A DNA stretch of 29,063 bases, taken from positions 1 to 29,063 of the IMG/VR virus record IMGVR_UViG_3300035698_001334; one strand, written 5' to 3'. Below, piece by piece: positions 77 to 14,442 of the stretch. Below the pieces are notes generated by a model. That model had not been told where the DNA came from, made no database searches, and saw only the letters and a list, made by a program, of their open reading frames with translations. Position numbers and translations under genes: made by a program. Within the stretch, counting starts at the first letter, position 1; each line of letters begins with the position of its first letter. The stretch is from a virus.

Positions 77-3000
77 CTATACTGCAGATGGAAAGTCTGT
101 TAATCTATCTACTCTACTAATTCTTCCTGTAGTAGCTATACTACTAAGAGCATTATAACCTAAGGAAGCACCAATGTCTACAGGAAATTGAGTGCTAGTT
201 GAAGCTACCGATATAGGAGATGGTACAGACATCATAGAAGGTATAGGACCTTGTAATCCTAACCCACTTTCAATACCTGGTGCTAGAGTTGCTACCATAC
301 CAGTATCAGAAGGCATATAAGCTGGCGGTGAAGACATAGCTGCTTCAATACCAGGAGGAGGTAATGGAGCTCCACCACCCATTGAGTACCCAGGCATGGA
401 TCCTATAGATGCCATACCAGGACCTATTACAACTGGGTTACTAGCATTACCAACAGGACGCCCGAATGAAGGTGCTACTGAAGGCATATCACCACCGGCT
501 GTTACAGAGTAGCCAAGGTCACTATTATCTATCATACCTTTCATATAAGGTGTACCAGATGTATCAGGTGATACATTAGGGAATAGTAATGATTTAGCCA
601 TACCTAATCCTAGTAAACCAGCTCCTGTTATAACCCCAGCACGCTTTGCATAAAAGAAGTTATCACCACCAGTATAAGGTTTTGATATCCAATCCCATAT
701 TCTACCTGGTGTCTTAAATGATTTCTTAAATGCATCCCAGAATCCAGTAGCCTGTGCACCTTCATGATCAATCATTTTCTTTTGTATTGCACCTTGATTT
801 ATTTCATTAGCAACTTCTGTAATAACCTGTAGATCTTCATCTACAGATATATCCATCATATTAGCTATACCCTCACCCATACCTAGCGTTCGTAACATAT
901 CTGTTTGTTTAGATATTAATTTACTATCTTCAAACTTTTCAGTAACAAGCCTATATACAGATGTGAGTCTATCCATTCTATCTTCAGGATTTAAGTTCAT
1001 AATTTTAGCTGAATCATCAACGAGTTTATCAATCTCAGTTCTATTGAAGTATGCTCCATCATCTTTCATTTGCTTTAGGCTTGATATAACCAAATTTGAT
1101 ACATCCCCAGCCGCTTCTTGTGCACCCTGTCCTGGGCCAGCAATATATCTAAAACCCTCAGTCATTGTACGATTTTGTATCATAGAATGGACGTGTTTTC
1201 TTATTGCTTCTTCATTGACCGTTCCAGACCAATAGTCTTCAGCTAATTCAAGGAACTTTATCTGTGGCATTGTTGCTTTCTTAATACTACCAATCTGTAT
1301 AGCATGGCCAAGGAAAGTACTAGCATTCAGAGCTGCTCTCATCTCTGTTGCCTTTTCACCAGTACCGTGTACCATTTGATATGCACTAATACCAATATCT
1401 CCGTACTTACCTTGCTGTATTATATCTGTATACTCTCTAACACGAGTTAATGCATTTACAACAGCACCAGTAGCAACCTTAGTGCTTATCTGTCTACGCA
1501 CACCAAACTCAGCAAGCTGTTTACTAAGTTCGTCACCGCCCGGATGCTTAGCTATATATTTAAATAGAGGTCCAGCAGCTCTCTTTACTGTTGCACCAAA
1601 TATACGTTCTACTGGAGCTTTACCTTCACGTGCCATTTGCATTAGTTTATTGAATCGAGTCTCTTCAGTACGTAAAGTACCAGCGATATCAGAAAGAGCT
1701 CCCATCTCTTTAGCTGATTCAAGGTCACCCTGTTTTATTGGCATACCTTTACTATATAAGTACTTAACATCATTAGCTAAATCCTTTAAAGTGCTACCCC
1801 ATGTCTTATGTCCCTCTGCACCTCTCTTAAATGGATTAATAACAAGCATAGCAGTATCAAAGTCAAAGTCCCTATACATCTGTTTAGCTGTTTCATTAAG
1901 CATAGCCATAGCGCCAGGCTTAACTTGATCACTTATAATAATACGTGTAGCTAAGGCACTGCCAGTAGCCTGCTCTGGATAAGCTATAGCAAGACCATAC
2001 AGTCCTTGACCAGATCTTTGTGCTAACTTCTTTAGTTTCTTAATGTTACGTATTCCAGATAACTCAGCAGCAGTCTTTGGATTAATTGCTATCTCACCAA
2101 AGCTCATTCCCTCTGGTACACCACCAAGCATTTCAGCAAAAGCTTTGTTTTCAAAGCCACCTACAACTGACAAATATCCACTACCTGCCATTTTAGGTTC
2201 CATCATTCCACGTAGTGCACCCTTCTTACCATCAAGCTCCATAGATAAAGCTTCTATAGCACTAGAGGCTCCTGCTTTGAAAGCACTGCTTTTACCACCA
2301 GCATCAGTTGCAAGTAAGGCATTCCATGTTTCAGTAAACTTATGCATAGAATCAGGGAACCTAGGATCTCCAGATTCAATAGAGTGTTTGATAGCAGATT
2401 CCCACATACTAAACCTGGGCATAACAAAGTCTACCATCTGTACTTGTTTAGAACCAACACCTATCTTCTGTGCCTGTGATAGTCTAACACGCACACGATT
2501 ACTATATATCTGTTCTGGTATTGCTTTCTTAAAGTCTTCTACACTAATACCTTCCAGTGTAGGTAGGTGTTTAATAGGACCTATCTTTTCTCTAGCAACA
2601 TCCAAATTTCTTATCTGCAGCTCATCACCAACAAGAGCCATGCCTTCTTTAGCAATCTCAGACTCTGCAAGTATCTTACCTTTAGCTAGCCTTTCAGTAC
2701 CAGACATAGAAGCTAATACTTCAGATATATCTCGCATTACAGACTTTGAAGTCTCCGTTGTAGGACGTAGATCTTCCAATTGCTTAGCAAGCCTCTTACC
2801 TGCAGGTGTCTGGTATCCCCTTATGTTAGTGGCAAGTAGGTCAGTTATTTTTGCACCTTTACCTGTGCGTGATAATCCTGTAGATGATGGACCGACCATA
2901 CCTAGTAAAGCTTGTATAGTATGGCTCTCTTCACGTATATGTGCTGTATGTACAAGTTCATAAGCAGTCTTACGTACTATTTGACCTGTAGTTGGATCAC

Positions 3001-4996
3001 TATAAGAGAAGGCTCTTTCAACAAACCCAGGTGTTACTTTATCTTTATCTGGTAGACCTAACTTACTTATTGTTCTATTATACTGTCTAGTAACGTCTTG
3101 TATCTTTTGGAAATTCTTATGGTCTAATGAAGCTTGTTCACCAACTATAAGTTGTGGTAGTAGTTTCTTATTACCACCAAAGGTTTCTGAAGTCCACTTA
3201 GACTCTCCACCAACTGCACTAGCAATATCACTAAGAAGATTTTGTTTAGCCAAATAGAGGTCTTTTGCTACACCAGATTTCTTAGATGTATCGTGTCCAC
3301 CTAACTGTGACACGATTGTATTCAATATACTCTCTCTATAAATGTCAGGATACTTACCTACATCTAGTTGTGATGTAAGTATATCTACATCACTAAGTCC
3401 TGATGATATACGGGAGAAGTCTGTGATACCAGAGGCTGTAAACTTATGTCCAGCCATAACAAAACTAAGACCACCAACCTGAGCTCCACCAAAAGCAATT
3501 GCAGATTCTTGAGTTAAACTTGATACGCCACGTCTCATAGCTTTCTTTGCTTGTCTTTGAAGTGACATATTAGAAGCTACATCCATAGTAAGTCTCTTAG
3601 CCGCACTCTCACTTACCACAGCCATACCTTCAGATCCAGCAAGTTCTCTCAGCCCTGGTACAACCAACATGCGCATTTGCATAGCAGATGGGGCTCCATG
3701 CATTGCTAGTGTAACAGCTTCCATACCCTTCATTGCTTTAGTTGCAGTACCAGGAGTATACATTCTACCACCAGGTAGTATACTCTTGGCTTTACTTAGT
3801 ATAGATTTTGATAGTGTACCTTGTCTGAACCTATACATAAATCCACGAGCCAGGTCTGCATACTGACCAAATGGTGAGAACTCTCCTGCAGGCATAACTG
3901 CTGCCTTACCACTCTTTAGTAATGCCTCAGTTTTAGCTATACCTGTATAGGCTCCCCTTCTCTGTACCTCAGCTATTTCAGCTGCTGTACCTTTCATTAT
4001 TTCATTTATCCTGGTTACATATGAGTAACCACTAAATCTCTCTATACCTACTCGACTGGCTTTTTTATGAGCCTCAGTTTGTACCTGTGCAATCAGATCA
4101 GTAAAGGGCTGACGATTTCCTTCTGTTGTATAATCATATACTGAACCAAAGTGCTGTTCCATCCATGCAGACGAGGCAGAGGCCTCATACCTATGTAGTT
4201 GTCCTAACACACCAGCAAGCTTACCTGGTACGTCTTCAGGCCTGCCTGCATCTTTAAGTGCTTCTGACAGGAATGTACCAACACCTATTCTACTTAACCC
4301 TTTGTCTTTTTGTAATAGTATACCTGGCTGCTCAACAAACAATGGGGCTCTAGTAGCTGCATGAACAATTTCACGTGGATGGGTTATAAGACCAGGAAGC
4401 CATTCAGTTTCCTGACCTTTATCAAGTGATATACGCATAGCAGCCCTGGGTAAACCAAAGGTAAATGGACCAAGCTTAGCAGGTATACGTACATCTTCGA
4501 CTTTCATACCAAATATGGAAGCCTTAGAGAGCCTTGGTGTTCCAGTACCTGTTAGTCTAGAAGGTTCTCTAAGCAATGTTTCTAGGACAGCTTCATGTAT
4601 ACCAGCTTCCATTTTGTAATTACCTTCCTGCATAGTGCTAGGAAGTAGTTCATGTGCTTGCTTAGATATCTGGTGTTTAGCTTGCTGAACATAGCTCTGG
4701 ATACTTGCATCCCTACCACCAGCAGAACTATAGGCTCTTCCCATTGTACCGCCTGGGAATGTAGGTTTGTATCCTTTCTCTAATTCTACATTCATAGCTA
4801 GGCTACGTATTTTACCTAAGACACCGCCATATTTGTATGTAGTTGGTATAGAGTAGGGATCAAGGAAAGCACTTACATTAGGAAAGCCCATAGATTTACT
4901 ACCTGCATCACCAAACATAGATGCACCAATACCTGTATACATCCCAGATTGACTGGCTAAATTAGCACCAAATTGTGCAGGATCCAATATACCCAT
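77..4996 (-). CDS. Giant tail structural protein 2 (1639 aa, tape-measure candidate)
   Basis: Starts at TAATG over the previous stop, with GGAG 7 bases upstream. The N-terminal ~60 residues are Gly/Ser/Met-rich (MGILDPAQFGANLASQSGMY). Residues 60-1440 are mainly Lys/Ala/Leu/Glu-rich and look largely helical, with stretches such as SIQSYVQQAKHQISKQAHEL and EALSMELDGKKGALRG, the expected composition of a tape measure. A single hydrophobic segment lies at about residues 1444-1464 (VITGAGLLGLGMAKSLLFP). It is followed by a low-complexity Pro/Gly/Ser/Met tail to the end. If it is the tape measure, its length implies a long tail (about 1.5 angstroms per residue is the usual rule). It may instead be a partner of the upstream giant protein. 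Confidence 0.6.
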   Translation of the reverse strand: MGILDPAQFGANLASQSGMYTGIGASMFGDAGSKSMGFPNVSAFLDPYSIPTTYKYGGVLGKIRSLAMNVELEKGYKPTFPGGTMGRAYSSAGGRDASIQSYVQQAKHQISKQAHELLPSTMQEGNYKMEAGIHEAVLETLLREPSRLTGTGTPRLSKASIFGMKVEDVRIPAKLGPFTFGLPRAAMRISLDKGQETEWLPGLITHPREIVHAATRAPLFVEQPGILLQKDKGLSRIGVGTFLSEALKDAGRPEDVPGKLAGVLGQLHRYEASASSAWMEQHFGSVYDYTTEGNRQPFTDLIAQVQTEAHKKASRVGIERFSGYSYVTRINEIMKGTAAEIAEVQRRGAYTGIAKTEALLKSGKAAVMPAGEFSPFGQYADLARGFMYRFRQGTLSKSILSKAKSILPGGRMYTPGTATKAMKGMEAVTLAMHGAPSAMQMRMLVVPGLRELAGSEGMAVVSESAAKRLTMDVASNMSLQRQAKKAMRRGVSSLTQESAIAFGGAQVGGLSFVMAGHKFTASGITDFSRISSGLSDVDILTSQLDVGKYPDIYRESILNTIVSQLGGHDTSKKSGVAKDLYLAKQNLLSDIASAVGGESKWTSETFGGNKKLLPQLIVGEQASLDHKNFQKIQDVTRQYNRTISKLGLPDKDKVTPGFVERAFSYSDPTTGQIVRKTAYELVHTAHIREESHTIQALLGMVGPSSTGLSRTGKGAKITDLLATNIRGYQTPAGKRLAKQLEDLRPTTETSKSVMRDISEVLASMSGTERLAKGKILAESEIAKEGMALVGDELQIRNLDVAREKIGPIKHLPTLEGISVEDFKKAIPEQIYSNRVRVRLSQAQKIGVGSKQVQMVDFVMPRFSMWESAIKHSIESGDPRFPDSMHKFTETWNALLATDAGGKSSAFKAGASSAIEALSMELDGKKGALRGMMEPKMAGSGYLSVVGGFENKAFAEMLGGVPEGMSFGEIAINPKTAAELSGIRNIKKLKKLAQRSGQGLYGLAIAYPEQATGSALATRIIISDQVKPGAMAMLNETAKQMYRDFDFDTAMLVINPFKRGAEGHKTWGSTLKDLANDVKYLYSKGMPIKQGDLESAKEMGALSDIAGTLRTEETRFNKLMQMAREGKAPVERIFGATVKRAAGPLFKYIAKHPGGDELSKQLAEFGVRRQISTKVATGAVVNALTRVREYTDIIQQGKYGDIGISAYQMVHGTGEKATEMRAALNASTFLGHAIQIGSIKKATMPQIKFLELAEDYWSGTVNEEAIRKHVHSMIQNRTMTEGFRYIAGPGQGAQEAAGDVSNLVISSLKQMKDDGAYFNRTEIDKLVDDSAKIMNLNPEDRMDRLTSVYRLVTEKFEDSKLISKQTDMLRTLGMGEGIANMMDISVDEDLQVITEVANEINQGAIQKKMIDHEGAQATGFWDAFKKSFKTPGRIWDWISKPYTGGDNFFYAKRAGVITGAGLLGLGMAKSLLFPNVSPDTSGTPYMKGMIDNSDLGYSVTAGGDMPSVAPSFGRPVGNASNPVVIGPGMASIGSMPGYSMGGGAPLPPPGIEAAMSSPPAYMPSDTGMVATLAPGIESGLGLQGPIPSMMSVPSPISVASTSTQFPVDIGASLGYNALSSIATTGRISRVDRLTDFPSAV

Positions 4997-7900
4997 TAAT
5001 ATACTCCTACCGCTAATGGACTATATGTACGTTGTGACATGTATGGCGATATATTTGCCATTGTACTAAACCTAGTGCTTGAATACAAGGCAGTACTTGC
5101 ATTAATTGTACTAGCAGATCTTTGTGATTGTGACATCATTTGCCAATCATACTTCTCATCCTCACGTTTACGTCTTGGGTATCCAGCAGGTAGCATAGGT
5201 GCGTATTCAGCATCCTGTACTTGACCCTGCCATATCTGGTAGTCATGGTAGTCTTCAGCTTGGTTAGCTACAGTACGTACTCTTACATCTTCAAGGTCTA
5301 CACCTGGAGACCATCCTGCCCAATTAGGATCAGGAAGTTCAAAGTTCTGATAGTAGTTCTTATTTCTGGCAAAGGCTATAGAGCTTGCTGAAGCGTCTTT
5401 CATTGCAGGTTCTATATCTATGTTTTGATTCGTAAGATCCTTACCCCAAACACCAAGATACACAGGTTTCATATTATCAGGTGACATCTTTAATATCTTG
5501 GAACGGTTAGTAGGATTGGACTCATTAGCAAAGCTCTTGAAGTACTTACGTTCAGATTTAGGCATAGCTTTCCATATATCATACTTTAAGCTCTGCTGAC
5601 TAAATGTTAGTCCAGTAAGTGTTTGCTTCTTCATGGTAGAGTATGTAGTAGCTGATTGAGAAGCACCAATCAAACCGGAGAATTTCTCTAACCTATTATA
5701 CTTATGGTACTTAAGCTTATCAAAGTATTCTTCAAGTTCTCTACGTTGTGTTACATCATTTGGAATATAAGGATCCTCACGCATTGTATTTATTGCTTGT
5801 CTACCCCAGAACCTGATGAAGTTCTTATATGGATGGTTCCATCCAGCAAAACCACCACCTTCAAGTTCCTTCATCTGATAGTCTTCTGTTGCAGATCTTC
5901 TAGTAAATCCTTTAGTTAGAGGCCAGTCAACTGGCCCAGGAATACGTAAGTGTCTGAGAGATTCCCACACCTTGGCAGAAGAACTCTGCCCATACTTGGC
6001 TTGTGCAGCAGCAGGATTATCTGTAGTTGAACCTAAGCCATGATCGAATCCAAACTTATTAATTCCTGGTACTATTGCAGGTGTAGAATCACCAAGACCC
6101 TGAGATCCTACTCTTATGTTTACTGTACTACCTCTAAGAGATTCAAGCTGTCCACGAAGCTCACTATATTTGCTATACATCTGGTCAGCAGACTTACCCT
6201 CAGATTGTGCTTTCCATACTTGTCTGGCTAGATTTGGTTCTATTCCAGCAAGTGCATAGTTCTGTCCTCTTGAATCTCTAAACTTCGAGTGCCCCAGCAC
6301 TTTATCTATTGTAACAGTTTGCTCTCTTAGAGCGCCTTCCTGAAACCTATATTCCTCAAAGTCTGGCTTAAACTTTGTTTCAACCTGATGTAACGACTCT
6401 TGGTACTTGTCTTCCCAGAATCTATCTACAAGCCCTGCATCACGCCAACTATCTACTATAGCTTTATGGTGTGTATAAGATTCACTTCCAGGATCCACAT
6501 CAGCAAGAACTAAGAGCCTATCCATGGCATCATATGTATTTGGAGCACCAGAGTGTAATCTATGAAGAGACTCATAACCAGGACCAGGTAGACGTGCCTC
6601 ACCAAATTTGATTTTTGTAAACGGATCACCAGTATGGAAATCCTCATATGAATCCTGATCTTTCATATACTTAGACTTTGAACCTGGCATCCAAGAGGGC
6701 ATAGTATTAACTATTGGATTCACTTGTTCTATATGACTTCTACCACGCGGTACAAAGCGTCTAAAGAGCTCGTTACTACCAAGCATGCCACCAAGGTCTT
6801 TATCATAGTAGTCACGTTGTACAGACGCCATAGCACTTGCTGTAGCTATCTGAGGACGCTTATCAAACCAGTGCTCAGAACCAGTTACTTTCTCTTTGAG
6901 GAAGTTAAGACTATACCCGGTTAAACCAGTCCACTCAGTTAATCTGTATATCTCTTCACCAGTCATCTGATCAAGTCTACTTCTCTTTACTGACCTACGT
7001 TGGAATCTAGGCCAGTAGCTTGATCCAAGAGCATAACCAGCTTCCTCAACTGAAGATGGAGTGTTTCTATCAATAACTGATCCTGAATCAGACCAGTACT
7101 CTGGGTGCATTCTATGCTGAGGCTTAAGGTATCTTAGTGGAGATATTCTACTTCTAGACAACCAAGGACCAACCAGTGGTATGTCACCACCTAAAGCTGC
7201 AGTTAATGGATAAGGTCTATCACGGTGATGCTCCCTCTCTAAAAAATATGGATCAAATAGCTTCTTTAAGCCAAATAGGTTCTCTGGTGTAGGAAGCATA
7301 GATCCATGGGACCAGGCTTCTTTCTCTGATCCATATAATGCCACATCTTTATAATTAGACATCATTAATGGATACCAGTGTTTCCTAAAATGGTCTACTC
7401 CAGATCCCTCAAAAGGATCTCTTCCAAGCATCCACCATCTATTCTTACGTACTGCTATATCTCTTTTACCAGAGTATATATCTTTAAGCTCTTTATACGA
7501 CTGTGTAACATCAGTCATATTCATAACACCAAGTGCAGCACCACCTATTAGTGCTGGAGTTCCAAGCCCAGCAGCAGATAACCAAGCACCGCCCATAACT
7601 GATATACCACCACGTACAGCTTTAGATAGTGGTGAGTCTATCATACCTGGATACTTTTCTTCCAAGTTACTTGCGAAGTCAGTTATACCTAGGCCATCTA
7701 GTGCCTTTTGTTGAAGTAGTCTGGCACCAGCATATATGTTAGCAAGACCAGATACTGGACCCGGTAGGTCTCTTCTTCGTAGTCTGTAATCAGTATAGTT
7801 TAGTACACTGGCACCTACAACTGTAGGAAGAGCTACATTAAGTAGAGTACGTCCTATAGTTTTAGTCCATGTACGACCTGGTGCAACACCCATTCCCATG

Positions 7901-9603
7901 GTTTCTTCTGCTAGCCAGAAAGGTCTGAACATTTGGTAGTTAAGCCAGTCTTTAAATCCAGTACCTATACTCTTAGGTGTCTCTATAGTGCCTTTAGGAT
8001 AAAAGAAGTATTCACCAAATCTTCTCTGCATACCTGTCTTGGCTTCCTCTGGACCAAATCCCGCTACCTTTACACTGCGTACACTTCTTCTACCACTAGG
8101 TGAATATGTAACAGTTTTGCGCTTAGGCTCAACACCAATCTTTAATTTAAGCTTCTCCCAGAAAGATAAATCACCTACAGATTTAGGTTTGTGTTCTCCA
8201 GCCATACCAAAGTCACGTTCAAGTTTACGTAACTGTTCATGGAAAAAGCCTTTACTGGAATAAGGTCTAACATATCCGGATTTGAATGTAGAAGATACCT
8301 GGGCAGGTTTAGTACCCATATCTTTAAAGCGTTCTATAGATTTTTGTATTACACTCTTACGTCTTGCATACTGAGGGCCAAAACCGAGCTTCTCACCAAT
8401 TACAGCTGCATGTATACGAAGCTTATCCCAGAATCTAGCTCCAGGATTAACGTAGTCATCAGCCTTAAAAGCTCTACCTACATTTCTAGCCTGTGCGGCT
8501 GCACCGTAAACATCTTTGGATATTATACCGTGTTCTCTAAGATAACGCTCTGTAGTGCCTGCTCCAGGGCTTATACCTAGTCTAGCTTGTGCACCACGGA
8601 ACATACCAGAAGCACGGTTACCAACACCAAACTTACCTTCTATAGCTCCGCCTATATTTAGTTTACCAGCACCAGTCTTGGTAACAGGGAATACAGAACC
8701 ACCAGAGTATATAGCCTGCTGTACATCTCTTCCTTCTTTCTCCAGTGCTTTCTGTGCAAACTCACCAGTTACATGAGCTACTCTAGGTTGACCATACAGA
8801 TACTCTGTTGGGTAGAATAACTCGAAAGGCTTCCAGCCTACAAATGGAAGTTTAAACCTGGAGAACCAGGTAGCTATATTCTTTGGAAGGAATCTACCGG
8901 CATCAGCGAATTCAGTACCAGCTGTTGTCTTTCTCTTAGTAATACCAGGGCTTAACACAAGTTGTTTTGCCAACTCAGATTGCGTCATCCTGGATTTAGC
9001 TAGGTAGGATCTACCAGCAGGACTATCAGATACAGATAGGAACTGCTTGGTAGCAGTATCAAGATCAGGACCTATCATAGCTCTAAGCTTTTCTCTACCT
9101 GATCCAAACACAGCATCATGCAGAGAAGCTTGTTTATACTCACCAAACTGGCGAGGAGCATAGCGCATCAGGTTCTCAAAGAAACTACCTGCTACTTTAT
9201 CCTGTGCACCAGCAAAAGGGGACTGTGGTTTTATTATCTCGTATAGATTCTCTAAGTCCCTTGATATACCTAATCTACGATGGCTGAACAGAGCTTTGGT
9301 TGCATCAGGACCTAAGTCACTACGACGTAAGAATGGTTCTGTACCTTCATATACATTTGGTACAAGCTTCTTGAACATAGGGAACTTATTAACTACGTCT
9401 TCTAGCTTGTTAGCTATGTCAAAGAAAGCACCTTTATGGAATGCATTTACTCCAGCATGGCCTATTGCAAGAATACCAGCACCAAGAGCCAGAGTAACTG
9501 GAGACAGCAGGCTTTCATTTTTAGTTGTACTTTCTGCTATCTCGTCACGCCGACGTTGTATGTAACTCTCGTAACCTCTTGGTATTCTACTTCTTTCTGG
9601 CAT
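4996..9603 (-). CDS. Giant tail structural protein 1 (1535 aa, tape-measure candidate)
   Basis: The ATG at 9603 lies 17 bases inside the preceding gene; only a weak purine-rich site precedes it. Three hydrophobic segments are visible: residues 33-55 (LLSPVTLALGAGILAIGHAG), 585-603 (TLLNVALPTVVGASVLNYTD) and 663-696 (ISVMGGAWLSAAGLGTPALI). The rest is rich in Arg, Tyr, Pro and Trp, with blocks such as WWMLGRDPFEGSG, HGSMLPTPENLFGLKKLFDP, REHHRDRPYPLTAALGGDIP and LKPQHRMHPEYW. I recall similar blocks in giant tail-region proteins of other large phages but cannot name the family. Position right after the chaperone-like pair and hydrophobic segments fit a tape measure or membrane-active ejected protein. 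No peptidoglycan hydrolase motif is visible. Confidence 0.6.
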   Translation of the reverse strand: MPERSRIPRGYESYIQRRRDEIAESTTKNESLLSPVTLALGAGILAIGHAGVNAFHKGAFFDIANKLEDVVNKFPMFKKLVPNVYEGTEPFLRRSDLGPDATKALFSHRRLGISRDLENLYEIIKPQSPFAGAQDKVAGSFFENLMRYAPRQFGEYKQASLHDAVFGSGREKLRAMIGPDLDTATKQFLSVSDSPAGRSYLAKSRMTQSELAKQLVLSPGITKRKTTAGTEFADAGRFLPKNIATWFSRFKLPFVGWKPFELFYPTEYLYGQPRVAHVTGEFAQKALEKEGRDVQQAIYSGGSVFPVTKTGAGKLNIGGAIEGKFGVGNRASGMFRGAQARLGISPGAGTTERYLREHGIISKDVYGAAAQARNVGRAFKADDYVNPGARFWDKLRIHAAVIGEKLGFGPQYARRKSVIQKSIERFKDMGTKPAQVSSTFKSGYVRPYSSKGFFHEQLRKLERDFGMAGEHKPKSVGDLSFWEKLKLKIGVEPKRKTVTYSPSGRRSVRSVKVAGFGPEEAKTGMQRRFGEYFFYPKGTIETPKSIGTGFKDWLNYQMFRPFWLAEETMGMGVAPGRTWTKTIGRTLLNVALPTVVGASVLNYTDYRLRRRDLPGPVSGLANIYAGARLLQQKALDGLGITDFASNLEEKYPGMIDSPLSKAVRGGISVMGGAWLSAAGLGTPALIGGAALGVMNMTDVTQSYKELKDIYSGKRDIAVRKNRWWMLGRDPFEGSGVDHFRKHWYPLMMSNYKDVALYGSEKEAWSHGSMLPTPENLFGLKKLFDPYFLEREHHRDRPYPLTAALGGDIPLVGPWLSRSRISPLRYLKPQHRMHPEYWSDSGSVIDRNTPSSVEEAGYALGSSYWPRFQRRSVKRSRLDQMTGEEIYRLTEWTGLTGYSLNFLKEKVTGSEHWFDKRPQIATASAMASVQRDYYDKDLGGMLGSNELFRRFVPRGRSHIEQVNPIVNTMPSWMPGSKSKYMKDQDSYEDFHTGDPFTKIKFGEARLPGPGYESLHRLHSGAPNTYDAMDRLLVLADVDPGSESYTHHKAIVDSWRDAGLVDRFWEDKYQESLHQVETKFKPDFEEYRFQEGALREQTVTIDKVLGHSKFRDSRGQNYALAGIEPNLARQVWKAQSEGKSADQMYSKYSELRGQLESLRGSTVNIRVGSQGLGDSTPAIVPGINKFGFDHGLGSTTDNPAAAQAKYGQSSSAKVWESLRHLRIPGPVDWPLTKGFTRRSATEDYQMKELEGGGFAGWNHPYKNFIRFWGRQAINTMREDPYIPNDVTQRRELEEYFDKLKYHKYNRLEKFSGLIGASQSATTYSTMKKQTLTGLTFSQQSLKYDIWKAMPKSERKYFKSFANESNPTNRSKILKMSPDNMKPVYLGVWGKDLTNQNIDIEPAMKDASASSIAFARNKNYYQNFELPDPNWAGWSPGVDLEDVRVRTVANQAEDYHDYQIWQGQVQDAEYAPMLPAGYPRRKREDEKYDWQMMSQSQRSASTINASTALYSSTRFSTMANISPYMSQRTYSPLAVGVY

Positions 9604-10462
9604 CTATCGCTGCTCTCTTCAACGTATCACTAAGGTTCTTACTAGTCTCCATATCTAAATCGTGTTTAACTGACTCTCCGTGTGAAGCACTATAGCCTAA
9701 GCTACCATACTCAAGGTTCTCCTTTTCAAAATCTATGTTCTTTGGTTTACTAATCGGGTTAGGTTGCATAGTTTTTGATGGACTTACCTGATTTGCTGGT
9801 TTAGGTTTCCTTGGTACTTTAAGCTGTATTGGTAGCTCAGTATTAGTAACATACTCAGCCATAGCTATATGTGAAGACATTGTTTCCAAGTTCATATCAT
9901 ATACCTCACTCGGTTTTAGACCGAGTGACTTGGATACAAAAGCAACTATAGAGTCATCGATTGTAGATTTTATTCTGGCTCTAGCCGCATCGATACTATC
10001 TATAAAGGTTTCTATATTTGAGAACCCTGTAGACTCCCATATCATTCTAAGTAAGAAAGATACAGCTCCCTGATCCATATCATCAGTGCACTCTGCACTA
10101 GGATGTATTAAGCAGCAAGCTAATAGATAGTCCTGTGCAATACCAAGAAATGGATTACATATGGGGAATTGATCTGCTATGCCAGTGGCTAAAGTACGAG
10201 CTATACCCGGCCCGATGTTCAGTTGTGAAACATCTATGGAAACCGGGTACATATCGACTTTTGATAATTGCAGGAACGTTTGGGATTCTCTTAGTGTAGC
10301 CGGTCTATATACAAACCACTTTCCACGTATAGGAATAGCATATAATTCACTGCATTCTTTCTTCCATCTGGAGAGATTACTAAGAATCTCTTTAGGCAGT
10401 TTAATAGGCCGACCAACAGAATCCTGTTCCATTATGTATGAAGCAGGATCTTTGGGCTTCAT
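9587..10462 (-). CDS. Tail assembly chaperone-like protein 2
   Basis: 291 residues, starting at TAATG over the previous stop with no ribosome site of its own, so translation probably depends on the upstream gene. Residues about 30-170 repeat the blocks of the previous protein: WKKECSELYAIPIRGKWFVY, then LLACCLIHPS with GAVSFLLRMIWESTGF. The C-terminal third is additional: a Pro/Lys-rich linker (QLKVPRKPKPANQVSPSKTM) and a charged end. A short protein followed by a longer relative resembles the lambda G / GT arrangement, but here made by two tandem genes rather than by frameshifting. It overlaps the following giant gene by 17 bases. Confidence 0.55.
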   Translation of the reverse strand: MKPKDPASYIMEQDSVGRPIKLPKEILSNLSRWKKECSELYAIPIRGKWFVYRPATLRESQTFLQLSKVDMYPVSIDVSQLNIGPGIARTLATGIADQFPICNPFLGIAQDYLLACCLIHPSAECTDDMDQGAVSFLLRMIWESTGFSNIETFIDSIDAARARIKSTIDDSIVAFVSKSLGLKPSEVYDMNLETMSSHIAMAEYVTNTELPIQLKVPRKPKPANQVSPSKTMQPNPISKPKNIDFEKENLEYGSLGYSASHGESVKHDLDMETSKNLSDTLKRAAIDARKK

Positions 10463-10848
10463 TACAGTTTAATGGGCATTGAGTCAGGTTCAAAACCACT
10501 AGCCGCTGCAACTAGCGAGAACAGAACTGAAGGAACTCCAGCACTATTTGGTGTAGCAGGATCAAGATTACCTGGATGTAGCAATGCAAGACTAGATACA
10601 GTTTCTTCTTTGGTAAGTATATCCATGGCATTCATATCTTGTGTAGAACTCAACTGTTTCCATTCCATTCTGGAAAGCCCACGATACACATATCCTTTAC
10701 CACTAATAGGTATGTAGTGAACATCTCCGTACATGCTCTTCCACTGATTGACCTTACCTGGTTCAAGTCCCAGTTCCTTTTCAATATCGGTAAATTTGTC
10801 TGCGGGTTTTTCTTGGCTTTTTTGTTCTTGTTTTTCTTCATTAGCCAT
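10462..10848 (-). CDS. Tail assembly chaperone-like protein 1
   Basis: 128 residues, with AAGGAG 7 bases before the ATG. The N-terminal ~25 residues are Lys/Glu/Gln-rich and probably disordered. Then come WKSMYGDVHYIPISGKGYVY and, later, SLALLHPGNL with GVPSVLFSLVAAASGF. The same two blocks appear in the next gene. The location between tube-family genes and the giant tail genes is where tail assembly chaperones lie in most tailed phages; these bind the tape measure and recruit tube subunits and are absent from the finished virion. The stop shares one base with the next ATG (TAATG). The function is inferred from location and small size; no sequence signature proves it. Confidence 0.55.
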   Translation of the reverse strand: MANEEKQEQKSQEKPADKFTDIEKELGLEPGKVNQWKSMYGDVHYIPISGKGYVYRGLSRMEWKQLSSTQDMNAMDILTKEETVSSLALLHPGNLDPATPNSAGVPSVLFSLVAAASGFEPDSMPIKL

Positions 10849-10877: not shown

Positions 10878-11594
10878 TTATGAGGAAGCACTACGCTCAC
10901 TCAAGGGTTTAATATACTTTGCTATAAATTCATATCTTTCCTTAATTGGTTCGCCACTTAATTCAGCACGTGAGTTATCTATTCTTTTACTTACTCCAGT
11001 AAATGATACATCCTCAAGTACTTCTACGTATTCAGCACTGGATTGTATAGCGTTAGGACCGTACGTGACTAATATACGTACTGGGGGTATTTTATAAGTT
11101 GAGTTAGTAGGAGGTCCATAGGTACTATTGTTAATTGTTTCACTAGTAAGTTCCTCTGGATTAGTAGATTGACTATTTGGATTCCAGAACTTATCCTTTA
11201 GATAATTGTTTACATAGTTAGGAGTTTCACCATTACGTTGTTCATACTGTCCCATTAAAGCATCTTCCCAATCACTAGCAGATACAGTACCTAGCATCTG
11301 TGCATGGTCCTGCCTCTTTATTTTATCTATAAAGTTAAGGCTTTTAGAGATTGTTTCAGGAGATAGTTTACCTGCTTTATATCCCATAATAGCTTTAGTC
11401 AGGTATCCAACAAACCTAAAGTTTATTGTGAGACTTCCTATAACTACAGATCTAGCTGATGCAGTAGCCCTGAAGTGGTGATCATGATATCCATAGTATA
11501 TCTCTTTTGGTGCTGTCTCAGCATACTCTATAGAGCAGACATCGTCTAACCATTCACTACCAATAAATACCTGTACTTGTGTCGGTGCTACCAT
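10878..11594 (-). CDS. Tail tube-like paralog 3 (divergent)
   Basis: 238 residues starting at TAATG with the previous stop; the absence of a clear ribosome site suggests reinitiation. I see a third, more divergent version of the tube-like pattern: EYAETAPKEIYYGYHDHHFR, then SVVIGSLTINF (compare IAGSLIF and IAGTMIF), and IPPVRILVTYGPNA followed by YVEVLEDVSFTGVSKRIDNS, ending with EPIKERYEFIAKYIKPL. The middle carries an insertion with NPNSQSTNPEELTSETINNS, likely a disordered loop. A baseplate-hub or tube-end protein is a reasonable guess. The homology is a by-eye call and weaker than that between the first two copies. Confidence 0.6.
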   Translation of the reverse strand: MVAPTQVQVFIGSEWLDDVCSIEYAETAPKEIYYGYHDHHFRATASARSVVIGSLTINFRFVGYLTKAIMGYKAGKLSPETISKSLNFIDKIKRQDHAQMLGTVSASDWEDALMGQYEQRNGETPNYVNNYLKDKFWNPNSQSTNPEELTSETINNSTYGPPTNSTYKIPPVRILVTYGPNAIQSSAEYVEVLEDVSFTGVSKRIDNSRAELSGEPIKERYEFIAKYIKPLSERSASS

Positions 11595-12355
11595 TATTTA
11601 TTTGATTCCCATACCCAGCTTGCATTGTCTTTTTGATACATGTCAAAGTTCCAATTGTTTTCTTTAATCTGTCTACTGCTTGCAGCATTACTCATAACTA
11701 CACTACCTTTAAGTATATTACTTACTTCTTCTCTCCATTGATTTGAACGCATAAATGGAGTAACTCCTCTAGCTACATAGGTATATGTAGACTCAGTAAG
11801 TAGGTCATCTATTGAATAGGTAGTACCATAGTTAGCTAAGGTTATACCTACAATTGCTCTTGTTGCTTGCACGCCAGCTTCATTCACAGCATTCAGGATA
11901 ATATTAAAAGGAGGTATTTGGTCTACAAAGAACTCACCTCGTCCTGACATCTCACTTATATATACAGACAAGAACTCAGCAAATACATCTCTAAGTATAT
12001 CTGTGAATATCATTGTACCAGCTATAGTTCTAGAACCTCGTGACCAGTCTGTAGGAGCTGCACTACCAAGTATACGTACAGGATTTATAGTACGAGCTGA
12101 AGATATTGTAATAGTTTGAAGTTGGGCGAATACCTTTAGTCCACCAGATGGTATAAGGTAGTCTATCTTATCCATTATATTTAGATTAGCACTAAGAGCC
12201 TGATTAGGAAAGTATATTACACACTTTATATCAGCACCAGAGAAGGTAGTATATTCAGCGCCACTCCAGTCTGTGCCAAGTAACCTATCCTGTGCCTCTA
12301 GTTTATTTATTTGAGGTCCAGAATACTTTGAGGGCCAGTGCATATATTCTAACAT
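11594..12355 (-). CDS. Tail tube-like paralog 2 (possible tube initiator or baseplate component)
   Basis: 253 residues, with GGAG 8 bases before the ATG. It resembles the preceding tube protein segment by segment: FSGADIKCVI, ITISSARTINPVRILGSAAP, SRGSRTIAGTMIF, IPPFNIILNAVNEAG and SIDDLLTESTYTYVARGVTP occur in the same order as in the tube. It differs by an N-terminal extension of about 35 residues (MLEYMHWPSKYSGPQ) and a C-terminal extension of about 45 residues. Unlike the tube it is rich in ATA and CTA codons, as expected for a low-copy protein. A role as a tube-baseplate adapter or terminal ring is inferred, analogous to the tube-like initiators of other contractile systems. It overlaps the next gene as TAATG. 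Confidence 0.7.
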   Translation of the reverse strand: MLEYMHWPSKYSGPQINKLEAQDRLLGTDWSGAEYTTFSGADIKCVIYFPNQALSANLNIMDKIDYLIPSGGLKVFAQLQTITISSARTINPVRILGSAAPTDWSRGSRTIAGTMIFTDILRDVFAEFLSVYISEMSGRGEFFVDQIPPFNIILNAVNEAGVQATRAIVGITLANYGTTYSIDDLLTESTYTYVARGVTPFMRSNQWREEVSNILKGSVVMSNAASSRQIKENNWNFDMYQKDNASWVWESNK

Positions 12356-12372
12356 TATTAATACTCCAGTAA

Positions 12373-12408
12373 GGTAAGGGGCCCCTTTATATTGGGAGCC
12401 CCCTTACC
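12373..12408 (-). promoter_or_regulatory. Long GC-rich hairpin after the tail tube gene
   Basis: GGTAAGGGG (12373-12381) pairs with CCCCTTACC (12400-12408), extended inward by more G-C pairs around two single-base bulges, with loop TTTATATT. It fills almost all of the 64-base gap. On the transcribed strand it is followed by TTACTGGAG, so there is no T-run; the GGAG ribosome site of the next gene begins 5 bases past the stem. A partial terminator or RNA stabiliser is plausible. Confidence 0.7.
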
Positions 12409-12419
12409 GACTACAATAA

Positions 12420-13058
12420 TTAAGAACTCGTAAAAGCGTGATGGAAGCCTTCCGCGGCGTCCACAGGGGCGCCACCCAGATACCTCCAAGGTACGATTCC
12501 ACGTGCGACGAAAGTCATGTTTTCGTCTGTAGTAATGTCGTCAATTGAAATACCAGAACCAGCGTTCAAGATTTCAACTCCGACCAGTTCCATGCGCATA
12601 GCCGCACCGTATTCAGTCATACCCGTAAGAGTAATATTGAACGGTGGCAGCTGGTCATGATACCATGCATAGGACTTACGAACTTCACCAAGTTGTGACA
12701 TATCAACACCTGCATTAGGTACTTGATCTGGTGAAGGTGCAGAACTACCAGCCGATCTCTGTTTACGCTGATAAGTAATATCTTCTTGAGATGCCCAGAA
12801 GAGAGCTTTCTCTCCCATAGCCTCAAGAAGGTTAGACCTATTCAGCACAACAAATATCAGCGATCCAGCAATACCACGTTTACCTCTGGAAAAAGCTCTA
12901 GGATCTGCGCTACCCATTGTATACACAGGTGCCTTTTCACGAGTAATCGTATACGAAACACCCTGAAGTGTTCCGATTATTTTGTTAGCAAACGTAGCCT
13001 GGATATCAACACCGGAGAATGACTGGTAGCTTTTGGTAACTTCAGATGTCATAGACAT
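12420..13058 (-). CDS. Tail tube protein (major)
   Basis: Inner tube of the contractile tail. 212 residues, with AAGGAG 9 bases before the ATG and located immediately after the sheath, the standard myophage order. Conserved elements are FSGVDIQATF, ITREKAPVYTMGSADPRAFS, KRGIAGSLIF, LPPFNITLTGMTEYG and SIDDITTDENMTFVARGIVP. These are shared with the next gene and, more weakly, with the one after it, so this is one of three tandem paralogs. It is the copy that uses expression-adapted codons (ATC/ATT, CGT, few ATA), which marks it as the abundant tube subunit. A hairpin follows the stop. The identity rests on position, size and paralogy; no single signature residue defines it. Confidence 0.82.
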   Translation of the reverse strand: MSMTSEVTKSYQSFSGVDIQATFANKIIGTLQGVSYTITREKAPVYTMGSADPRAFSRGKRGIAGSLIFVVLNRSNLLEAMGEKALFWASQEDITYQRKQRSAGSSAPSPDQVPNAGVDMSQLGEVRKSYAWYHDQLPPFNITLTGMTEYGAAMRMELVGVEILNAGSGISIDDITTDENMTFVARGIVPWRYLGGAPVDAAEGFHHAFTSS

Positions 13059-13071
13059 TATTTATATCTCC

Positions 13072-14442
13072 TTAACTACCAAGTGAGCCCGGTGGCACAA
13101 GAGATACTCTTGTAGTAATCTGCTTAATTTCAAACGAAACATCCAGTTTTACGTCAAGCAGAATATTACCAAGAATCTGCATAGATGGAGTAGAAAGAAG
13201 AGAGAACGAGAAGTCTTGCAACGACCCATCCTTAATCATCTTACCAAGTCCTTCATCCACTTCAGTCTCAAGTGCATTCCGATTAGTTGGGTTATTAGGT
13301 TCTCCAAGGAAAGGCTCAGCAACTGCACGTATCAGGTTAATTGCTTCGTGAACAATTCTCACTGTACTAAGGTTGACAAAGTCAGACCTGTAGTACTGAG
13401 AGATGTTATAAGCACCTGTTACAGCAAATGAGAGCTTATTTCCACTAGGCTTAGTCAATACAGTAACAAACCTTCCAGTGGAAAGGTTACTGGCTTGCGT
13501 AAGCGACAGGTTTCTAGACGGTGTAGAGTTAGGCAGTATTTTATTACTGGGAGATCTCCTCGCAACAAGAGAAGACATAAGACCAGCATAAGTAGCTGCA
13601 CCATTGTGTGTATACCATCCAAGGGTAGGATTAATCCTACTTGCAATTCCCGAGTAACTGCGAAGGTGCGAAGCAACAACACTAATATAGGAACCAATGT
13701 CAATTGGGTTCCCAATAGCATCTGTAAGCACTTGTCCATCAGTTGACGGGGGAGCTCCACCAGGTATATTCTGATCTGAAGTAGCATAGAATGCATAGTT
13801 GTCAGGCACTCCGTCACCACCAGCATCAGTAACACCATCATAGGAAGTAAATGCACTACCCTGAAGAGCATTAGTATCATAGGCATTAAGAGCGGTAACC
13901 CAAGCAGATATCTCGCTAAGAGTAGGAGTACCAGTAAGACTTGCTATCGGAGGCTCTGTTCCTATAACACCAACTGCTGTGTTATTATTCACAGTTGATC
14001 TATAACAGAAGTTCGCCAATTGATAAGCAAAGTTTCTAGCTTCTCCACCCACACCAGTACTAAGGGCTGTGTCTATATTAGCCACAGGAGCAATAATGTC
14101 AACGTTTGTATTAAGCAAGTAACTGTAGGCAGTAGTGAAAGCATTGTATCTATTAGATGCTGTAATACTGTTGTTGTTACTTACAATCATTACTTCGACA
14201 TTGTCTGCTCCACCATCCCAGGCTTCACTAACTGCTTCAGAGATTTCTGAGGGAGCTCCACTAGCTCTGTCGAACTTGTAGATATCCTCATATCTCGTAA
14301 GCACATACGGATCAAAAAGGTCTACCGTAGTATTGTCAGTTGCACCAAGAATAGTAACCTTCGGCTGGAGGATTGGGCGCGAGACTCTAAGGCCGCCGTC
14401 CTGCACTTCACTGTAAACACCAGGAAGATTATAATCAGCCAT
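13072..14442 (-). CDS. Contractile tail sheath protein
   Basis: Forms the contractile outer cylinder that drives the tube through the cell envelope, making this phage a myovirus. 456 residues, with an ATG 6 bases after GGAGG. The N-terminus has the sheath signature ADYNLPGVYSEVQ, followed by GATDNTTVDLFDPYVLTRYE, where many sheaths have a VGTA...P..I-type start. The body contains GGADNVEVMIV and SYLLNTNVDIIAPVANIDTA. The C-terminal domain has VTGAYNISQYYRSDFVNLST followed by NLIRAVAEPFLGEPNN, and ends with ILGNILLDVKLDVSFEIKQI and TTRVSL, the conserved sheath C-terminal handshake region. The length is on the short side for the family. Confidence 0.92.
   Translation of the reverse strand: MADYNLPGVYSEVQDGGLRVSRPILQPKVTILGATDNTTVDLFDPYVLTRYEDIYKFDRASGAPSEISEAVSEAWDGGADNVEVMIVSNNNSITASNRYNAFTTAYSYLLNTNVDIIAPVANIDTALSTGVGGEARNFAYQLANFCYRSTVNNNTAVGVIGTEPPIASLTGTPTLSEISAWVTALNAYDTNALQGSAFTSYDGVTDAGGDGVPDNYAFYATSDQNIPGGAPPSTDGQVLTDAIGNPIDIGSYISVVASHLRSYSGIASRINPTLGWYTHNGAATYAGLMSSLVARRSPSNKILPNSTPSRNLSLTQASNLSTGRFVTVLTKPSGNKLSFAVTGAYNISQYYRSDFVNLSTVRIVHEAINLIRAVAEPFLGEPNNPTNRNALETEVDEGLGKMIKDGSLQDFSFSLLSTPSMQILGNILLDVKLDVSFEIKQITTRVSLVPPGSLGS

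Follow-up and report, generated by a model that had tools for sequence, protein, structure and literature searches.

Tube-like proteins that initiate the tail tube are already established in the phages T4, Mu and XM1. In T4, the abundant tube protein gp19 is accompanied by two low-copy baseplate rings, gp54 and gp48, which are located where the tube starts and form the hub for its polymerization. The initiators Mu gp43 and XM1 gp11 combine a tube-like baseplate domain with extra parts that contact the wedge. In phage G, a tandem pair of tube candidates, gp179 and gp180, lies between the sheath and chaperone genes, and its authors asked whether one of them binds the tube to the neck or to the baseplate (PMC8570332). 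Here we describe three tandem genes, T1, T2 and T3, found likewise between sheath and chaperone genes in a virus fragment of 29,063 bases (IMG/VR record IMGVR_UViG_3300035698_001334, hereafter the window), of which the virion genes are on the minus strand. The three genes, with protein lengths in amino acids (aa), are:

12420..13058, minus strand: T1, 212 aa, read as the major tail tube protein because it is homologous to T2, follows the sheath gene and has abundant-type codon usage
11594..12355, minus strand: T2, 253 aa, tube-fold paralog and probable low-copy ring (homology, predicted fold, codon usage)
10878..11594, minus strand: T3, 238 aa, diverged tube-fold paralog and probable low-copy ring (profile homology, predicted fold, codon usage)

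As in T4, one tube-fold protein of abundant type is accompanied by two of low-copy type. In contrast to the T4 set, T1, T2 and T3 are adjacent and still mutually alignable, with no sequence similarity detected to any solved structure. The phage G pair consists of two genes whose products match each other (hhalign E 1.4e-30) and are unlike T1, T2 and T3, and apparently represents a separate duplication. A homologous triplet in the same order is found in Bacillus phage vB_BauM_KLEB27-3 (gp26-gp28), where all three genes are annotated as "tail tube protein" in GenBank and T1 shares 41% identity with T1 of the window; no analysis of this triplet was found in the papers searched. Two other phages belong to the same lineage, Acinetobacter phage ME3, which carries T1, T2 and T3, and Bacillus phage 0305phi8-36, where gp142 is the T3 counterpart by gene order and whose published account states no tube relationship (PMC2147016). 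No description of the conserved triplet was found in the open-access papers searched, a scope that leaves out most subscription journals.

Homology, fold and age of the triplet

The motifs FSGVDI, RGIAGSLIF, PPFNITL, SIDD and FVARGIVP of T1 correspond to FSGADI, RTIAGTMIF, PPFNIIL, SIDD and YVARGVTP in T2, and the two proteins share 29% identity (BLASTP, E 1e-21). With T3, BLASTP returned nothing significant against either of them. Family alignments of 29, 20 and 24 sequences were compared as profiles with hhalign, and all three pairs matched (T1-T2, probability 100%, E 4.8e-46; T1-T3, 96.9%, E 1.4e-10; T2-T3, 96.4%, E 1e-9) in colinear alignments of 146-178 columns. Column-shuffled controls produced one spurious probability of 99.3% per comparison, and the one inspected was a 7-column match at the end of the template, an artefact of the program. 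Reversed profiles and unrelated window proteins were therefore used as controls; the former reached E-values of only 0.1-0.7, and the latter, nine other proteins of the window, probabilities of at most 0.7%. Moreover, the T1 profile reaches T3 directly in KLEB27-3 and ME3 (E ~1e-8) and the T3 profile reaches T1 in most loci. Judging from these profile comparisons, the homology of T1, T2 and T3 is confirmed, far beyond chance. When T2 or T3 alone was used to scan viral contigs, no relatives were retrieved. Among solved structures, searches with single sequences yielded no convincing match, and the T1 and T3 alignment profiles gave only chance-level ones.

AlphaFold models cover T2 and T3 only, with modest mean predicted local distance difference test scores (pLDDT; 63 for T2 and 69 for T3) and better values in the core strands. 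Both present the strand order beta-beta-beta-helix-beta-beta-beta, form a tube beta-sandwich and match tail tubes and Hcp, with which Foldseek concurs. The best structural match of T2 is the phiCD508 tail (Z 11.5, root-mean-square deviation (rmsd) 3.1 over 110 residues) and that of T3 the PVC sheath-tube complex (Z 11.3, rmsd 5.3 over 131 residues). Each of them holds a tube-like domain that is distinct from the major tube protein, yet homologous to it, and T1 would be a tube-fold protein through its homology to T2.

Relatives were drawn from viral contigs, bacterial assemblies and named phages. The order T1-T2-T3 is kept in 100 of the 119 sources scanned, including three loci with an extra weak match downstream and one with a doubled T1. 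One or more members are missing from the 19 others. Most of these break off close to the triplet or contain only part of T1, and a few (e.g. L048, L049 and L055) continue several kilobases past T1. In a maximum-likelihood tree of 79 domains, T1, T2 and T3 each fall on one side of a branch (Shimodaira-Hasegawa approximate likelihood ratio test (SH-aLRT) 98, 76 and 99, respectively), with similar branching inside each group, so that the duplications precede the lineage and are ancient. Among the members of this lineage are phages of Bacillus, Moorella and Acinetobacter, and 0305phi8-36 is related to it (PMC2147016; ME3 annotation). A recent duplication in this phage is rejected by the same tree.

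The original prediction had described three tandem tube-like paralogs, the third being more divergent. All three open reading frames (ORFs), at precisely the positions given, and every motif that it quoted are present, and its description is borne out by BLASTP, by the T2 and T3 folds and by profile-profile comparison, in which all three pairs proved homologous. T3, invisible to BLASTP and detectable by profiles, is indeed the more divergent. Tube folds, which it expected of the three proteins, were recovered for T2 and T3, to which the models are confined; neither unrelated folds nor unrelated families, which it named as counter-evidence, were encountered for these two. On the other hand, its proposal that the duplication arose here does not hold, as the tree and the relatives date it before the lineage.

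Some members carry additional genes within or next to the triplet. A conserved gene of about 600 aa is located between T2 and T3 in one subgroup (L019:7434-9368, L027:8091-9863, L029:8796-10598, L032:9070-10869 and L033:8753-10552), without Pfam match in the three members scanned. In another locus (L115:8826-9398), an ORF encoding an HNH endonuclease directly follows T3, and its last residues repeat those of T3 (EQYTFIAR), a pattern that insertion of a homing endonuclease at the T3 3' end could have left.

Abundance signals and the intergenic hairpin

Synonymous codon usage was scored in 77 loci on an axis opposing the sheath gene (abundant) to the longest of the tail genes downstream, taken to be low copy. 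Sheath-like usage was found for T1 in 65 loci, versus 7 for T2 and 9 for T3, and usage of the low-copy type for T2 in 70 loci and for T3 in 68. T1 scores above T2 in 94% of loci and above T3 in 99%, T2 and T3 being alike. The axis is supported by the window itself, where capsid and T1 score positive and terminase and portal negative; T2 and T3 score negative as well, and the scores of KLEB27-3 and ME3 agree with this pattern. Shine-Dalgarno sites are weaker for T2 and T3 than for T1. Furthermore, T2 and T3 are far more variable in length than T1 (172-925 aa for T2), with terminal extensions that reach about 700 aa and would hardly fit between tube and sheath. With codon usage as proxy, our reading is that T1 is abundant and that T2 and T3 are low-copy; the latter look like specialized versions of the tube protein, which fits end rings.

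KLEB27-3 also harbors two genes annotated as tail sheath (L001:5895-7760 and L001:8431-9939), the first with codons of a lower-copy type than the second (score -0.10), and the first may therefore be a minor sheath paralog.

The gap between T1 and T2 contains one further element:

12373..12408, minus strand: GC-rich RNA hairpin with perfect 9-nt arms (12373-12381/12400-12408)

Its predicted stability is -28.4 kcal/mol (z -3.2). Strongly structured gaps (z < -1.5) make up 88% of the 85 distinct T1-T2 gaps, 64% of the 25 between sheath and T1, 24% of the 29 after T3 and none of the 6 between T2 and T3. An intrinsic terminator was rejected: a pattern scan of the T1-T2 gap finds none, and the hairpin is not a standard terminator since a U tract follows the stem in only 11% of gaps. 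No Rfam match to a known RNA family was found in the window. Stabilization of the T1 message, or uncoupling of high from low expression, are possible roles for this predicted structure.

Proposed placement of T2 and T3 in the tail

The genes on the minus strand of the window succeed one another in the order terminase, portal, major capsid, sheath, T1, T2, T3, two chaperone-like genes and two very large tail genes. The sheath gene lies directly upstream of the triplet, in the window and likewise in relatives, as in a contractile-tail cassette. The neighbors are:

13072..14442, minus strand: tail sheath gene, 456 aa (match to the PHROG tail sheath family phrog_16991, E 1.9e-59; Pfam Phage_sheath_1C, E 0.0017, short of the family cut-off)
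10462..10848, minus strand: first tail assembly chaperone-like gene, 128 aa, belonging to a chaperone family that related loci carry as two genes; its position agrees with the gene pair described for 0305phi8-36 (PMC2147016)
9587..10462, minus strand: second tail assembly chaperone-like gene, 291 aa, paralogous to the first and in the same chaperone family
4996..9603, minus strand: very large tail gene, 1535 aa, tape-measure candidate by position and size
77..4996, minus strand: very large tail gene, 1639 aa, the other candidate for the tape measure by position and size

A PHROG search of the 1535-aa and 1639-aa products gave no match, and position and size suggest that one of the two is the tape measure.

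We hold with moderate confidence that T1 is the major tube protein and that the tube ends in low-copy hexameric rings of T2 and T3, most likely a baseplate-side initiator and adapter. T1 would form hexameric rings stacked inside the sheath and around the tape measure, while T2 and T3, as ancient diverged duplicates keeping the tube fold, would be present in few copies, each as a single hexamer at the baseplate end. As the closer relative, T2 would touch the first T1 ring and set off polymerization; T3, which has changed most and has its gene closest to those of the chaperones and tape measure, would connect tube and hub, in the manner of gp54 and gp48 in T4. The hairpin would separate high from low expression. 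The homology of the three proteins, the folds of the T2 and T3 models, the kept order, the tree, the codon contrast, the weaker Shine-Dalgarno sites, the extensions and the hairpin all support this arrangement, as do the two hub rings of T4 and the tube-like initiators of Mu and XM1 with their wedge-contacting parts. From them we infer the formation of rings, their actual copy number, the baseplate side, the order of T2 above T3 and the role of the hairpin in expression. The baseplate side is preferred because T2 and T3 are located on the chaperone and tape-measure side, are two in number and form a series with T1 in which divergence grows through T2 to T3.

Several observations weigh against this arrangement. 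Codon usage is an indirect proxy of abundance, the 77 loci are related to each other, so that p-values overstate certainty, and MTATph1 shows no codon contrast. Solved initiators are not favored over tubes among the structural matches, where chains from tubes, baseplates, caps and necks occur together with comparable Z. In addition, Mu and XM1 have a single initiator, whose gene is numbered after that of the tape measure (Mu gp42, XM1 gp10), whereas T2 and T3 precede the chaperone genes. An initiator of divergent sequence may exist elsewhere in these genomes; as weak negative evidence, no tube or initiator family was found in Pfam for ten small baseplate-cluster proteins of KLEB27-3 and ME3, nor in PHROGs for eight of them.

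Alternatively, T2 and T3 could occupy one end each, one of them initiating the tube at the baseplate and the other ending the tube or joining it to the neck. Both are tube-fold paralogs of the low-copy type and could sit at either end, but we consider this somewhat unlikely, as their genes lie on the chaperone and tape-measure side, head and connector-type genes are found upstream of the sheath, and T4 places two such rings at one end. A tube with T2 and T3 interspersed along its length as minor subunits, similar to SPP1 gp17.1 and its extended form in a 3:1 ratio, is very unlikely: the tube fold of the models and the T1-like sequence of T2 would agree with such a mixture, whereas the low-copy codon signature and extensions of hundreds of residues in a sheathed tail would not. 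Least probable of all, T2, T3 or both would be non-virion assembly factors that bind T1 and act with the chaperones, given that they adjoin the chaperone genes and that a few relatives carry tube-like mini-domains without beta2-beta3 loop near these genes, but the T3 counterpart by gene order in 0305phi8-36, gp142, is a reported virion protein (PMC2147016) and the ME3 annotation ties its T2 to a virion structural protein of 0305phi8-36.

Further tube-like pieces and the annotation of tube genes

The mini-domains (L096:9163-9576, L125:1320-2132, L126:1290-2024 on the minus strand and L103:2516-2866) were detected with the T1 profile deprived of the beta2-beta3 loop (E 1e-4 to 1e-12). They are located between or near chaperone genes, the one of L103 being between T1 and T2; those of L096 and L125/L126 lack the loop segment (REKAPVYTMGSADPRSFSRGKR in T1) or have another sequence in its place. 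In SPP1, removal of the beta2-beta3 loop stops self-polymerization (PMC8718954), and by analogy the mini-domains could be non-polymerizing tube mimics. We regard as quite unlikely a broader scheme in which one tandem-duplicated gene would have given rise to the tube, to its end rings and, in part of the lineage, to a tube mimic near the chaperone genes that lost the loop and perhaps does not polymerize, with the hairpin setting the ratio of tube to rings. Two short ORFs (L101:8605-8943 and L127:209-592, the latter on the minus strand and far from the tail genes of its contig) carry the converse part, a REKAPVYTMGSA-like loop motif, and lack most of the tube domain.

T1 and T2 match PHROG phrog_9206 (E 4.6e-46 and 1.7e-24, respectively), which is labelled "major head protein", a label also present on these genes in the MTATph1 and ME3 records and which looks like a misannotation of the tail tube. 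The triplet would correct such labels on tube genes, both in phrog_9206 and in the records following it.

The triplet is a real and old feature, although other phages are already known to have end rings derived from the tube. The divergence between tube and end rings is often hidden, as the sequences no longer align; here, T1, T2 and T3 are alignable, adjacent and co-inherited in about 100 phages, so that the residues separating a polymerizing ring from a terminal one may be read from alignments.
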